A stretch of 64,000 nucleotides of DNA from Chlorobaculum parvum NCIB 8327 (GTDB lineage Bacteria; Bacteroidota; Chlorobiia; Chlorobiales; Chlorobiaceae), in NCBI RefSeq assembly GCF_000020505.1, contig NC_011027.1, positions 976,001 through 1,040,000 on the forward strand. The letters are read 5' to 3'. Position 1 is the first letter of the stretch. Each line of letters starts with the position of its first letter. The position numbers were made by a program, and so were the translations under genes. The notes below the pieces were generated by a model that made no database searches, had not been told where the DNA came from, and saw only the letters and a list, made by a program, of their open reading frames with translations. Below, piece after piece: positions 42,385 through 48,887 of the stretch.

Positions 42385-42780
42385 ATGATGAATTTTTTTG
42401 CCTCTCAGCCGCTGGTGGTGCTTATCTGCCGGGTTGCTCTTGCTTTTGTTTGGCTCTATCAGGGCGCCGTGCCGAAGCTGGTGTGCCCGAGTCCGGTCGA
42501 GTTGGGGCTGCTTTCACATCTGGGCCCGCTGTTCGGTTTTATGTGCTCGGTCATGGGATACGGTGAGATAGCGTTCGGGATTCTGCTGTTGTTGACCCCA
42601 TGGCGCTGGCCGTTTCTCTTGAACATTGCGGCCATGCTGAGCCTGTTTGGCTTTGTCGCGTGGCATGAACCGCATCTGTTGGCCGAAGCGTTCAATCCGG
42701 TGACGCTCAATGTGACGGTCATAGCCCTTTCTGTTATAGCTTACCGTGAGATGCGCAAATCCGTGGTGAGCACTCAATGA
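42385..42780 (+). CDS. DoxX-like small membrane protein
   Basis: A 131-aa protein with four hydrophobic helices: LVVLICRVALAFVWLYQGAV, the PLFGFMCSVMGYGEIAFGIL region, FLLNIAAMLSLFGFVA and VTVIALSVIAY. The start at the ATG at 42385 places the first helix at the N-terminus; the longer upstream reading lacks support. The pattern YQGAVPKL near the end of helix 1 and the GxxEI motif in helix 2 match the DoxX-like family, some members of which are linked to thiosulfate:quinone oxidoreductase or redox balance. Its stop overlaps the start of the next gene (ATGA), so the two membrane proteins probably form a unit. Confidence 0.7.
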   Translation: MMNFFASQPLVVLICRVALAFVWLYQGAVPKLVCPSPVELGLLSHLGPLFGFMCSVMGYGEIAFGILLLLTPWRWPFLLNIAAMLSLFGFVAWHEPHLLAEAFNPVTLNVTVIALSVIAYREMRKSVVSTQ

Positions 42781-44087
42781 AATCAGAACGATCCATGACT
42801 CCTGTGACTTCAGAACCTTCGCTTCGCGGAATCACCAGAACCTTTCTTGCCGTTTCGGTCATTATCATCTCCGTTGCCGTGCTTGTCGGCGGTTTGGGGG
42901 TGTTGACGGACAATGCGTTCCTGCTCAAGGTGCATCCCTATATCTTTTTTGTTGGATTCGGAAACCTCGCCATTCTGCTCTTCAACCGCTACCTGACCTC
43001 GGCAATCTATCCTGAGCTAAGGATTAATCCGGCGCGTCAGCGTGTGTTTATCGGCCTTGTGCTGCTGGCGCTGGTGATGGTTTCTGTCGCGGTGGCGTTC
43101 GAGCTGCCGTTGCTGAAAGCTGCTGCGGGTCTCATGCTGATGGGTGTGGTGGTTGTGCCGCTTTACGAAATTCTGACCACGCTTTCCGTCTCGAAGATCT
43201 GGAACGAGGTATCGGTGCGCTACTACATTTTCGACGTCGTGTTCCTCCTGAACGCCAACCTCGGTCTGTTCACCTTGGGTCTGAAAGAGGCGTTTCCCGA
43301 TAACGGCATCATTCCGTTCTTCGTGACGCAGTCCTCCTATTTCCTCGGCTCCTCCTTCCCGCTGAGCATCAGTGTGATGGGCTTTCTCTACACCTATGCC
43401 TGGCGGAAATCATCGAAAAAAGAGCTGGCCAAGCAGCTCTTCAGCCTCTGGTTTTACCTCTTCGTCGGCGGTGTGCTCTACTTCCTGATCGTCATCCTTT
43501 TGGGCGATTACCTCGGCATGATGCTTATCAGCCACATTCTGACCTTCGGCGTGATGGCGCTGCTCTACACCTTCGGGGTGTTCCTGCGCAACTATTTCCG
43601 TAACAACTTTGCCCATCCAGCGCTGGCGTTCCTGCTCGGCGGGCTGGCGTTTCTGTTCGCCACCAGCGCGTTCGGTATTCTGAATATCTACTACGCAAAG
43701 GGGATTCTGTTCGGCAGCTATCCGCCGATTCGTGGCGACAAGATGTGGATTTACCACTCCCACACCCACTCGGCGCTGCTGGGCTGGATCACCCTGTCGT
43801 TCACCGGGATGATCTACATTGTGCTGCCTGCGATCCAAAAGTTGGGTTCGCTCGACCTTTTGCATTCGGGTGATCCGCTGGACCAGTTGCTTGACGAGCA
43901 TACCATGAACCGTGCGTTCGTGCAACTTGCGCTTATGCTGGTTTCAGGCACCGTGATTATCGTGAGCTTCTTCACCGGCTCTGACCTTGCGCTGGGCTTC
44001 GGCGGGGTGGTGTATGCTTTCGCGGCTCTGTACCTGTTACGCAACCTTTTCCACGATCCGGTCTTCGAGACTGGTGATAACCAATAA
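42777..44087 (+). CDS. polytopic membrane protein resembling heme-copper oxidase subunit I
   Basis: A 436-aa protein with about twelve hydrophobic helices. One block, YHSHTHSALLGWITLSFTG (about residues 326-344), closely follows the CcoN/NorB helix X pattern HxHxxxLGW, where the two histidines bind the low- and high-spin hemes. An early helix has VHPYIFFVGFGNLAIL, possibly the other low-spin ligand. I cannot find the CuB ligands (HxxxY-like helix VI or the HH pair of helix VII). It may therefore bind heme without being an oxidase. It overlaps the DoxX-like gene by 4 nt and precedes the pentapeptide gene by 6 nt. Function unknown. Confidence 0.65.
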   Translation: MKSERSMTPVTSEPSLRGITRTFLAVSVIIISVAVLVGGLGVLTDNAFLLKVHPYIFFVGFGNLAILLFNRYLTSAIYPELRINPARQRVFIGLVLLALVMVSVAVAFELPLLKAAAGLMLMGVVVVPLYEILTTLSVSKIWNEVSVRYYIFDVVFLLNANLGLFTLGLKEAFPDNGIIPFFVTQSSYFLGSSFPLSISVMGFLYTYAWRKSSKKELAKQLFSLWFYLFVGGVLYFLIVILLGDYLGMMLISHILTFGVMALLYTFGVFLRNYFRNNFAHPALAFLLGGLAFLFATSAFGILNIYYAKGILFGSYPPIRGDKMWIYHSHTHSALLGWITLSFTGMIYIVLPAIQKLGSLDLLHSGDPLDQLLDEHTMNRAFVQLALMLVSGTVIIVSFFTGSDLALGFGGVVYAFAALYLLRNLFHDPVFETGDNQ

Positions 44088-45428: not shown

Positions 45429-46295
45429 ATGGTACGAAGCGCTTCGCCGCTGGTTACGGTCACCATACCGATGTACAACAATGAGCGCTATATCGCAGAA
45501 ACGATCGAGTCTGTTCTTGCGCAGACGATGCCCGATTTCGAACTGCTGATCTATGACGATCATTCGACCGACCGTTCGCTTGAGATAGCTCAGTCTTACG
45601 ACGACCGTCGGATCAGCGTTTTTACCAGCGAGAAAAACCTTGGCCCGGAGGCTAACTGGAACCGCTCAATCAGCGATGTGCGGGGGCGGTACGTCAAGCT
45701 GCTCTGCGCGGACGATCTGCTGTTCCCGGAGTGCCTTGAAAAGCAGTGTGCAGCCTACGAGCTTTCGGGTCAGGAGAAGGTGAGCCTGGTCTCGTCGTCG
45801 CGAACCATCATCGACCATGAGGGCAACCCGCTCATCAACAAAGTCAGTTTCCTCGATGATGGCCTGAAAAGCCCTTCGGATGTTGTCAGAAAAATGGTGC
45901 GTACAGGCACTAATATCATCGGCGAGCCGGTCTGCGGGCTCTATCCATCCAGCCTGATCGCTTCGACCAACGGCTATAGCGCACGCATTCCGTATACTAC
46001 CGATCTCGATTTCTGGGTACAGTTGTTGCGGCTCGGCAATCTCTGGATGATCGACGAAGCGCTCTGCGCGTTTCGGATTTCCGGCCGCTCGTGGTCGTCC
46101 AGAATAGGATCGATGCGCCATGAGCAGTTTGTTGAATTCATGAACGAGGTTGCCCTCGACGAGCAGTTTCAGGTCAACGAGCTCGATCTGTTTATCGGCC
46201 GCTTCAACTCTGCGGTGCAGTCCATGACCAGCCTTATGGGCTTTAAACTGTTCGCCGGATCGGCAAGTCAGAAACGGGTGATTCCGGTAACGTAA
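45429..46295 (+). CDS. family 2 glycosyltransferase
   Basis: A 288-aa GT-A fold glycosyltransferase. The N-terminal nucleotide-sugar site is [20 protein letters not shown] (~9-28), then [12 protein letters not shown] (~40) and the metal-binding [16 protein letters not shown] (~90). A later acidic segment, [12 protein letters not shown] (~190), is in the place of the ED base motif. A strong ribosome site (AGAAGGAGG) precedes the ATG. There is no membrane helix. It probably adds a sugar to a surface polysaccharide or glycolipid; donor and acceptor cannot be told. The frameshifted SDR gene follows after 46 nt. Confidence 0.85.
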
Positions 46296-46341: not shown

Positions 46342-47099
46342 ATGAGACTGGAAGGCAAGGTCGCCATCGTGACCGGGGCGGCAGGGGGAATCGGCAGCGC
46401 CACGGCGCGCTGCTTCGCTCGTGAGGGCGCAACGGTGGTGATGGTGGATATCGACGGCGACGGTTGTCACCGCATGCTTGATGAGATTGTCGGGCTGGGC
46501 GGAAAGGCTCGTTGTTATCCTGCCGATCTGACTTCCGAACCCGAGGTCGTCGGGTTGTTCGAGGAGGTTCGGCGTGAGTACGGACGCTTGGATATTCTGG
46601 TCAATATAGCCGGGGGGATTGCCAGCCGGGTGCGCCCGTCGAGGAGATCGATCCAGAACTTGCCATGAAGAATTTCGAGCTCAATCTGAAATCCACCATG
46701 CTCTGTTGCCGTGAAGCGGTTAAAATCATGAAGCCGCAATCTTATGGCCGGATCGTCAATATGAGCTCGCTGGTGTATCGCGGGAGCCCGGGCCAGTTCA
46801 GTTACGCAGCCTCGAAAGGGGGGATCTTCTCGTTCACCCGCTCGCTTGCCCTGACGCTTGGGGCGCATAATATCACAGCCAATGCGCTTGCGCCCGCTCT
46901 GGTCGAGGTGGAGGTCTTTGTTCGCGCACTTGGCCCGGAACGGTGGGCAGCTCTCGCCAAAGCGTCAGCAGAACGCTATCCATTAGGCCGGATCGCTACG
47001 CCCGATGATGTGGCCAGAGCGGCACTCTTTTTCGCTTCGGACGATGCGGCGTTCATTACCGGCCAGATCCTCGAAATTTCCGGCGGCGCAAGACTGTAA
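46342..47099 (+). pseudogene. short-chain dehydrogenase/reductase (SDR), frameshifted
   Basis: The first frame (46342-46668) encodes the Rossmann start VAIVTGAAGGIGSATARCF and LDILVNIAGG, then goes out of frame and ends. The second frame (ATG at 46665, to 47099) continues with LNLKSTMLCCREAV, the catalytic serine in VNMSSLVYRG, YAASKGG with the YxxxK pair, and the C-terminal ISGGARL. Adding one G to the run of six G at about 46612-46617 restores one 253-aa protein with every classical SDR motif (FabG-like length). So either one base was lost or undercalled, or the gene is broken. Substrate unknown; a sugar or fatty-acid intermediate is possible given the glycosyltransferase neighbour. Confidence 0.8.
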
Positions 47100-47108
47100 G
47101 CAGTTGAT

Positions 47109-47218
47109 AATGGATAGTTGACAGTTGATAGTTTGAAGAGGAGGCGGTTACGTTGTCGTGTCAAATGAGTCGCCTGCGGCATGATCAACGATCCATTGCC
47201 AATTGTCAACTTTCCATT
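47109..47218. repeat. imperfect inverted repeat element (MITE/REP-like)
   Basis: AATGGATAGTTGACAGTTG (47109-47127) is matched on the opposite strand by CAATTGTCAACTTTCCATT (47200-47218), 17 of 19 positions. The arms enclose about 70 nt, and GTTGATA-type repeats flank the left arm. No gene is present. The element lies between the SDR stop and the Nif11 gene and resembles small non-coding repeats scattered in bacterial genomes; mobility is unproven. Confidence 0.5.
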
Positions 47219-47301
47219 GTTTCCTGTCCGCCGATTGTTCATATTTAGTGTTAATAGTGTATTGTTCCCCTGATTCTTCAGTTAATTATTCCTCATTCAT
47301 C

Positions 47302-47565
47302 ATGTCACTTTCTTCAGCCAGAGCATTCCTTGACAAAATTATGGCAGACGATGAACTGCGTCTTCAGCTTGTGGACGATCTCCTGAAGTCAAGAATGGAG
47401 CTTATCAAAAAGGCAGGATTCGAGTTTACCGAGGAGGAACTCGATCATGCAAAATCGAACATGCCTCCCGGAGCGCTTGGCCATGAGGGTGGGTGGTTCT
47501 GCCAGGTGCTGCTTGACGAGCGTAACAAGCGCGGTGGCTATTGCGGTGGCGGCGTATGGCACTGA
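47302..47565 (+). CDS. Nif11-type leader peptide (candidate RiPP precursor)
   Basis: An 87-aa protein starting at the ATG at 47302 (MSLSSARAFLDKIMADDELR). Residues 1-50 fit the Nif11-like leader pattern: FLDKI, ELRLQLVDDLL, and KKAGFEFTEEELDHA. The C-terminal ~35 residues are different: Gly-rich with two cysteines (HEGGWFCQVLLDERNKRGGYCGGGVWH, read as HEGGWFCQVL and RGGYCGGGVWH). Nif11 leaders guide lanthipeptide and other modifying enzymes in known RiPP systems. No such enzyme or peptidase-transporter is seen within this window. A non-RiPP role for the Nif11 fold is possible. Confidence 0.75.
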   Translation: MSLSSARAFLDKIMADDELRLQLVDDLLKSRMELIKKAGFEFTEEELDHAKSNMPPGALGHEGGWFCQVLLDERNKRGGYCGGGVWH

Positions 47566-47636
47566 GGCCATTTGGTCCGTTCGGTTATACTTTCCAATCA
47601 TGCGCGTGCAGTCGCGCTTAAACAGGAGGTCGGTTC

Positions 47637-48887
47637 ATGTATCCGATTCAGATAGGCAATTACGATTTCAAAAGGCTTTACCTCTGGTTGCAGCATTCCG
47701 ACAAGCTCCCGTTTTTCACGGAAATTGTCATCGAAGTGTTCTATCCGAACAACATGCAGGCCGACGGGCTAGTGATGTTCAACCATGGGTTTCTGATCGG
47801 TACCGACCTGTTATTTTATCCGAAGCAGTTCATCAGCAAGCTTACTAATCAGGATACGCCGCTTTTTCAGGTCAATCCCTCCTGGTACTACAACTACTCG
47901 CAGGCGGCTATCAACAACAACTGGGCCTTGGGCTTTGTGACCACCGCCCATTTGCAGTTCGACATGATGCCCTGGACCAATCTCGGCGGAAATCCGCGCG
48001 TCGGGCAGGCGGCGTATGCGGCCGCATCGTACCTCATCAAGTACGGCGCGACGCACAAGTACGACGATCACGAATCGGTCATGAAAGCGCGGTTCCTGCG
48101 TGCAGATGCCTCCAGCAACAACAGTATGCTCAACCGGGTCATCTTTGCGGGCCATTCGGTTGGCGGTGCTCATGCGCAGGTTGCTGCGACCGGGTTCGAT
48201 GCCTTGCAGGAGATCGGAGCCCGGAACCTGATGCCGTTCGATCCCGTTTTCTACAACCGTGAGGTGACGCCCGATCACACGCTTCCGATGTCGAAGTGGG
48301 ATGAATCGAGCCGGGCGCGTCCGATCGGTCTGCTTCAGCTTTCGCCGGTCGATGGCGCAGGAGGCAAGACCGTACCGTACCTTGCTCCTGGCATGAAGCC
48401 CTACCGTGAGCATCTGGCGAGCGTGGCCATGCCCAATCTGATGGTGACGGGCGCTTGCGACAGTGCATGCCTCGATCCGAAAAACTCCGATCCTCCGGCC
48501 TGGATCGATGTTGCTGACAGAAGCACCAGCCAGTACGCCCAGATGGCCTACGGTAGCAGCAATTCATGGGCTGCGACCTGCATGGTGGAGCGGGGAAGCC
48601 ATTGCGGTTATCTCGCCCACCACAATGATCTCTGCACGCAGGCCGACAAGAAGAGCCTGTGCGATCCGTCGGTTACCCCCTACACGGCCAAGCAGGAGGA
48701 GTACCGTTTCAGCAATGAACTGCTCGATCAGTACATCGGCTTCGTTGCCGGCAAAGATCCTGCGAACTGCTCATTTGATACCTGGAAAAACGGCAGCCTG
48801 ATGCAGTGGCTCAACAAGGAAAAGCCGGGAACCAGTGGCGTCAGCCTGAGGCAGTTCCCTGACGGCTACGTCCATTTTCCTAGCTGA
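47637..48887 (+). CDS. alpha/beta-hydrolase (lipase/chlorophyllase-like)
   Basis: A 416-aa protein with a clear ribosome site (AGGAGG about 8 nt before the ATG). The nucleophile elbow is FAGHSVGGAHAQ (serine at about 173), and the oxyanion region is VMFNHGFLIG (~45). A late HxC segment, GSHCGYLAHHN, may hold the catalytic histidine (~322). Six or more cysteines in the C-terminal half (TGACDSAC, AATCMVERGSHCG, HNDLCTQADKKSLCDPS) suggest disulfides or metal binding. Yet no N-terminal signal peptide is seen. It follows the Nif11 gene by 71 nt. Substrate unknown. Confidence 0.72.
   Translation: MYPIQIGNYDFKRLYLWLQHSDKLPFFTEIVIEVFYPNNMQADGLVMFNHGFLIGTDLLFYPKQFISKLTNQDTPLFQVNPSWYYNYSQAAINNNWALGFVTTAHLQFDMMPWTNLGGNPRVGQAAYAAASYLIKYGATHKYDDHESVMKARFLRADASSNNSMLNRVIFAGHSVGGAHAQVAATGFDALQEIGARNLMPFDPVFYNREVTPDHTLPMSKWDESSRARPIGLLQLSPVDGAGGKTVPYLAPGMKPYREHLASVAMPNLMVTGACDSACLDPKNSDPPAWIDVADRSTSQYAQMAYGSSNSWAATCMVERGSHCGYLAHHNDLCTQADKKSLCDPSVTPYTAKQEEYRFSNELLDQYIGFVAGKDPANCSFDTWKNGSLMQWLNKEKPGTSGVSLRQFPDGYVHFPS

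Follow-up and report, generated by a model that had tools for sequence, protein, structure and literature searches.

Genome annotation names proteins that match TIGR03798 or Nif11 as RiPP precursors. In the available text of Haft, Basu and Mitchell (2010; PMC2887384), the Nif11 precursors of Chlorobium luteolum adjoin TOMM genes and transporters. Leaders of this kind serve as docking modules: according to the part of PMC12455567 at hand, MprE7, a nitrile-hydratase-like leader, adopts a stable tertiary fold and makes contact with the RRE domain of the enzyme that it serves. No publication on Nif11 in Chlorobaculum was found in the open-access literature, and one was found for Chlorobium. Here, we describe a Nif11 gene in a window of 64,000 nucleotides from Chlorobaculum parvum NCIB 8327 (NC_011027.1, positions 976,001 to 1,040,000); coordinates are those of the window, and all features given lie on its plus strand. 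The C. parvum protein has the N-terminal Nif11 domain in common with the N11P family (TIGR03798). Unlike N11P, as the available text of PMC2887384 presents it, the protein has no Gly-Gly, no hypervariable tail, and no paralogous expansion in its own genome, and neither a transporter nor a recognised modification enzyme lies beside the gene. The closest solved relative by profile is the MppE leader from Moorena producens, which belongs to a Nif11 RiPP (PDB 9zn4; E 0.012, profile positions 1-49); this alignment is limited to the Nif11 domain, and Foldseek gives no significant match (E 4.1).

The gene (47302..47565; ATG start at 47302, TGA stop at 47563-47565) encodes a protein of 87 aa, MSLSSARAF...GGWFC...RGGYCGGGVWH. 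Pfam Nif11 (33.5 bits, E 5e-8, cut-off 23.8) and TIGR03798 (39.2 bits, E 6e-10, cut-off 32.3) both match over their cut-offs, which confirms the original prediction that the N-terminal half is Nif11-like; the TIGR03798 alignment reaches no further than position 56 of the 68 in the profile. The Nif11 domain (aa 1-51; 47302..47454) is modelled by AlphaFold2 with high pLDDT (block means of 83-90 over residues 1-50), and three confident helices are predicted across residues 3-52 (3-15, 17-37 and 44-52). Confidence is low in the tail, with block means of 38-56 from residue 61 on, and the tail is probably disordered, to judge by this model. Other Nif11 peptides, which the original prediction had suggested looking for, do not occur in the genome at up to E 10: on its single contig of 2,289,249 bases, this protein is the sole Nif11 match. 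Judged from sequence, the ORF is a real gene and not a chance one, because full-length orthologs with 48-98% identity occur in 24 other genomes and the codons are under purifying selection.

Counting C. parvum itself, full-length orthologs are present in 25 of 86 Chlorobiaceae genomes, nearly all at the same locus. Searched with a profile, 98 genomes of the class returned the same 25 at 145-160 bits, with the next best match at 46 bits. At E 0.01, the protein has matches in 54 of the 86 family genomes; those beyond the 25 are other Nif11 peptides. In 84,980 species genomes, scanned by a method that requires exact short patterns and so could let distant relatives escape, 22 loci turned up, each assigned by record title to green sulfur bacteria. 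We found no plasmid homologs, no viral-contig homolog was confirmed, and PADLOC gave no anti-phage defence match for either the Nif11 protein or the hydrolase encoded downstream.

Behind the Nif11 domain, the orthologs share a tail of two conserved motifs. Motif 1 (aa 52-67; 47455..47502), with the consensus PPGA(L/F)GHxAxW(F/L)C, occupies the place of the Gly-Gly in classical Nif11 leaders. No Gly-Gly cleavage site was found there in any of the 25 orthologs, where K51 is followed by a (P/S/A)(P/H)GA(L/F)GH stretch. Residues G57, A58, G60, H61 and W65 are identical in all 25, and C67 is kept in 24 and lost in G010. Motif 2 (aa 78-87; 47533..47562) forms the C-terminus, with the consensus G-x-x-C-(GG/SS)-G-(L/V)-W-H; C81, G84, W86 and the last residue, H87, are likewise identical in 25/25. 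Two tail types can be told apart, ending in CGGG(L/V)WH (17/25) or in CSSG(L/V)WH behind a second Cys (8/25). Free variation is confined to the spacer between the motifs (aa 68-77; 47503..47532), which carries a one-residue deletion in five orthologs. The all-pair average pN/pS is 0.34 for the Nif11 domain, 0.23 for residues 52-67, 0.78 for 68-77 and 0.23 for 78-87, figures that are relative only, since pS is near saturation at 0.64-0.68. Purifying selection is thus stronger on both tail motifs than on the Nif11 domain. The stop codon is TGA in all 25 orthologs, with mixed stops in the neighbouring GT2, SDR and ATPase genes. Stop-codon readthrough was considered for this reason and rejected, as an alignment inspected by eye has no in-frame conservation downstream.

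For contrast, we read 32 other Nif11 peptides from 25 Chlorobiaceae loci, after three non-Nif11 rows had been dropped by eye. Most (25/32) have Gly-Gly after helix three and a differing tail, and one (L153) has AAGAG. The remaining six (L138, L140, L141, L147, L148 and L150) make up a second family that lacks Gly-Gly. Like the protein at 47302-47565, its members combine a Nif11 domain with a conserved tail; they differ in their length of 73 aa and in the tail itself, which is quite different, fixed as HFERWSWEA(K/R)L(L/I)A(D/N)WL, and free of Cys. The L140 peptide passes TIGR03798 with 51.3 bits, though it does not look like a RiPP precursor; thus, the model name alone is no proof of a RiPP. 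Two fixed-tail Nif11 families in the Chlorobiaceae, both without recognised RiPP machinery, point to other, conserved roles of the Nif11 domain.

To the original prediction, the C-terminus looked like a core peptide. In its classical form, this would make the protein the precursor of an antibiotic-type Nif11 RiPP, either a lanthipeptide or a thiazole/oxazole peptide, with modification in trans; the leader homology and the Cys/Gly-rich C-terminus speak for it. The gene is single-copy, however, and the supposed core is strongly conserved and not preceded by Gly-Gly. The enzyme searches also argue against it: LanC and MNIO are each absent from all 86 family genomes (two controls matched for each), and YcaO, found in 9 of 86, occurs among the 25 ortholog genomes only in C. 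parvum (G000), G003, G004 and G015, missing from 21. The C39 peptidase is encoded in 32/86 family genomes and 5/25 ortholog genomes, and no C39 export peptidase was found in the C. parvum genome. Lant_dehydr_N (LanB/PEARL) also gave 0/86, but its controls gave no match either. SPASM radical SAM proteins are common, in 71/86 family genomes and 23/25 with the ortholog; the two without are G026 (99% complete) and G048 (85%). The search for modification enzymes covered these classes, i.e., LanC, MNIO, YcaO, Lant_dehydr_N and SPASM proteins. Neither YcaO nor SPASM enzymes track the Nif11 gene. C. parvum has two SPASM matches, and the NCBIfam comparison covers one of them (G000:C1:939622-940710; L132:3622-4710). 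Among the matches listed, this protein is below every NCBIfam cut-off; it scores best, with 78.6 bits where the cut-off is 380, against a model for a tungsten-cofactor maturase.

These results bear on several parts of the original prediction. Its statement that LanM, YcaO and radical SAM enzymes are absent nearby agrees with our scan of eight neighbouring ORFs, none of which is such an enzyme. It had proposed a search for distant LanM or radical SAM enzymes: LanC is missing throughout the family, and SPASM proteins occur in 23 of the 25 ortholog genomes. It had also said that a genome free of modification enzymes, together with a core strongly conserved as a normal protein domain, would refute it. 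Most of that is what we found (a conserved core, no LanC or MNIO, YcaO in 4/25), except that the tail is predicted to be disordered and not a normal domain. Altogether, the conserved tail, the absent Gly-Gly and the enzyme searches largely refute the classical Nif11 RiPP, which we regard as highly improbable, and they lend no support to a C-terminal core peptide of the ordinary Nif11-RiPP kind. A glycocin made with the GT2 neighbour was also tried and set aside (SunS model 15.2 bits against a cut-off of 350, E 0.0075); the best NCBIfam matches of the GT2 protein are polysaccharide GT2 models, which are also below cut-off.

PQQ and mycofactocin are RiPP pathways that give one conserved product, and in the nosiheptide pathway the alpha/beta-hydrolase NosK acylates the RiPP precursor. 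The C. parvum protein could similarly be a RiPP-like precursor with one fixed product instead of a family of antibiotics. Behind the Nif11 leader, the conserved tail would then be the substrate of an enzyme that is unrecognised or whose gene lies elsewhere, and the hydrolase could release or acylate the peptide. A single product would predict a conserved core, and the modelled combination of a folded Nif11 domain with a probably disordered Cys/Trp/His tail has a leader-core architecture. TIGR03798, moreover, is matched by 25/25 orthologs at E 1e-3 or better, and the SPASM proteins of 23 of these genomes might supply an enzyme. Against such a precursor stand the missing Gly-Gly site, the lack of LanC and MNIO in the family, the restriction of YcaO to 4/25, the lack of C39 in C. 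parvum, and the absence of SPASM from G048 and from the nearly complete G026. The conserved neighbourhood contains no recognised modification enzyme either, the GT2 protein resembling SunS only at the E-value given above. We consider a fixed-product precursor, the main rival of the explanation that we prefer, possible, if on the whole somewhat unlikely. More specifically, one conserved, ribosomally encoded small molecule or cofactor-like peptide of green sulfur bacteria might derive from the 87-residue protein or be carried by it. The Nif11 domain would dock this protein on an enzyme that belongs to none of the known RiPP modifying families, possibly the adjacent hydrolase as an acyltransferase or peptidase for the invariant C-terminal CxxGxWH; this version we hold to be unlikely. 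Should the tail be modified, a well-studied group of phototrophs would have a RiPP with one fixed product and an unrecognised enzyme to make it.

The gene that follows (47637..48887) starts 71 bases past the Nif11 stop, behind a good ribosome site, AGGAGG at 47624-47629. Its product of 416 aa, a putative esterase-like alpha/beta-hydrolase, contains the nucleophile elbow GHSVGG and scores over cut-off with neither a Pfam nor an NCBIfam family; sequence searches of solved structures returned nothing below E 0.3. Its AlphaFold2 model (pTM 0.83, mean pLDDT 71) finds esterases as best Foldseek matches (E 2e-6; TM 0.35 and 0.43 for the first row). The hydrolase thus has the fold and the GxSxG elbow in common with HSL/carboxylesterase-type alpha/beta-hydrolases, but only about 10% identity to the solved esterases and, as noted, no family assignment. 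S174, D239, D275 and H322 are invariant in 19 homologs, and S174 as nucleophile with D275 and H322 is a candidate triad assigned from conservation, with D275 a tentative choice for the acid. The original description of a Cys-rich alpha/beta-hydrolase holds for the fold and is overstated for the cysteines (seven in 416 residues, with only C333 invariant in the 19); that the hydrolase lacks a signal peptide stands after inspection of its N-terminus by eye.

It had been left undecided at first whether this neighbour is coincidental, and our comparison makes a connection probable. By match coordinates, a hydrolase lies within 200 bases downstream of the Nif11 ortholog in 19 of 25 genomes, and two separate hydrolase lineages are found beside Nif11. 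In a tree of 43 hydrolases (quick method; the family has 71 matches in 63 genomes), the Nif11-adjacent hydrolases fall into a Chlorobaculum-type clade of 13 (100% SH-aLRT including the G016 copy) and a Chlorobium-type group of 6 (91% support), labels that we assigned in the present analysis, partly from synteny. The hydrolase family is encoded in 25/25 ortholog genomes, compared with 38/61 others (8e-5, hypergeometric, uncorrected for the relatedness of the genomes). Since the genomes are related, this co-occurrence is no more than suggestive of a link. The link is not strict, because five genomes (G005, G009, G010, G013 and G018) carry the Nif11 gene without an adjoining hydrolase and G016 has none downstream; there, the Nif11 contig ends on the 5' side and the hydrolase, which holds a stop codon, is on another contig. 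The 38 genomes that encode the hydrolase family without a 47302-type Nif11 gene also count against the pairing.

The wider locus has a recurring order: a DoxX-like protein, a 436-aa membrane protein, a pentapeptide protein, GT2, SDR, Nif11, hydrolase and P-type ATPase. The GT2 glycosyltransferase (45429..46295; PF00535, E 2e-26) and the SDR-family oxidoreductase (46342..47099) are syntenic neighbours, and the SDR lies within 600 bases upstream of Nif11 in 21/25 orthologs. This arrangement invites another reading, in which the hydrolase is a mere syntenic neighbour and the Nif11 gene, inserted into a GT2-SDR-hydrolase module, encodes a small protein that acts independently (e.g., a regulator). 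SDR orthologs with at least 59% identity occur in 73 of the 86 family genomes, and 11 of the 61 genomes that have no Nif11 ortholog carry the hydrolase immediately after the SDR. The order thus exists without Nif11, and therefore the gene was either inserted or lost. Its persistence without an adjoining hydrolase in five or six genomes fits an independent protein as well. However, G007, G008 and G017 keep the Nif11-hydrolase pair without the upstream SDR, which counts against pure hitch-hiking, and an independent protein is also disfavoured by two hydrolase clades that both follow Nif11 and by a hydrolase family present in every ortholog genome. We judge independence to be decidedly unlikely.

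Our best explanation, to which we give about even confidence, is that this is a single-copy, Chlorobiaceae-specific Nif11 protein with a docking domain for a fixed partner and a fixed Cys/His/Trp tail, and not a classical natural-product precursor; it possibly works together with the neighbouring esterase. By analogy with MprE7 (PMC12455567, as far as the available part describes it), the Nif11 domain would be a docking module for a fixed partner, as such leaders are for their enzymes, and the tail would carry the function. The flexible tail may be presented to that one partner, for which the family of the neighbouring alpha/beta-hydrolase is the likeliest candidate, and act via its conserved Cys, His and Trp in binding, metal coordination or one fixed chemical modification. 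H61, C67, C81 and H87 are candidate metal ligands, whose site is not modellable because the tail pLDDT is low; alternatively, W86-H87-COOH may be a recognition end. This explanation is weakened in that shared ancestry and synteny alone could account for much of the hydrolase linkage, and in that C67, one of the candidate ligands, is lost in G010.

Several minor features of the locus were also observed. The stretch upstream of the Nif11 gene (47180..47301) has partly conserved A+T-rich blocks in an alignment read by eye and may hold the gene's own promoter; a sigma-70 scan of this stretch found no excess over shuffles. Before the ribosome site of the hydrolase, ten Chlorobaculum-type genomes have a short GC hairpin (47613-47632), which we do not put forward as a conserved structure: 88% of cells pair, but covariation is not above shuffles. 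The 436-aa membrane protein conserved at the locus (42777-44087) has an HSHTH motif and no Pfam or NCBIfam match. A frameshift, or else a sequencing error, divides the SDR gene of C. parvum in two (46342-46668 and 46665-47099); G002 and other relatives have it in one piece. Among genomes with other contents behind the SDR, the complete, Nif11-less genome G019 has deletion-like remnants of the P-type ATPase gene there (L120:6257-7085). G035 has a DUF2784 gene (PF10861; L089:10696-11073) between SDR and hydrolase, in the place of Nif11, and ORFs resembling it lie between the same two genes in G039 and G044.
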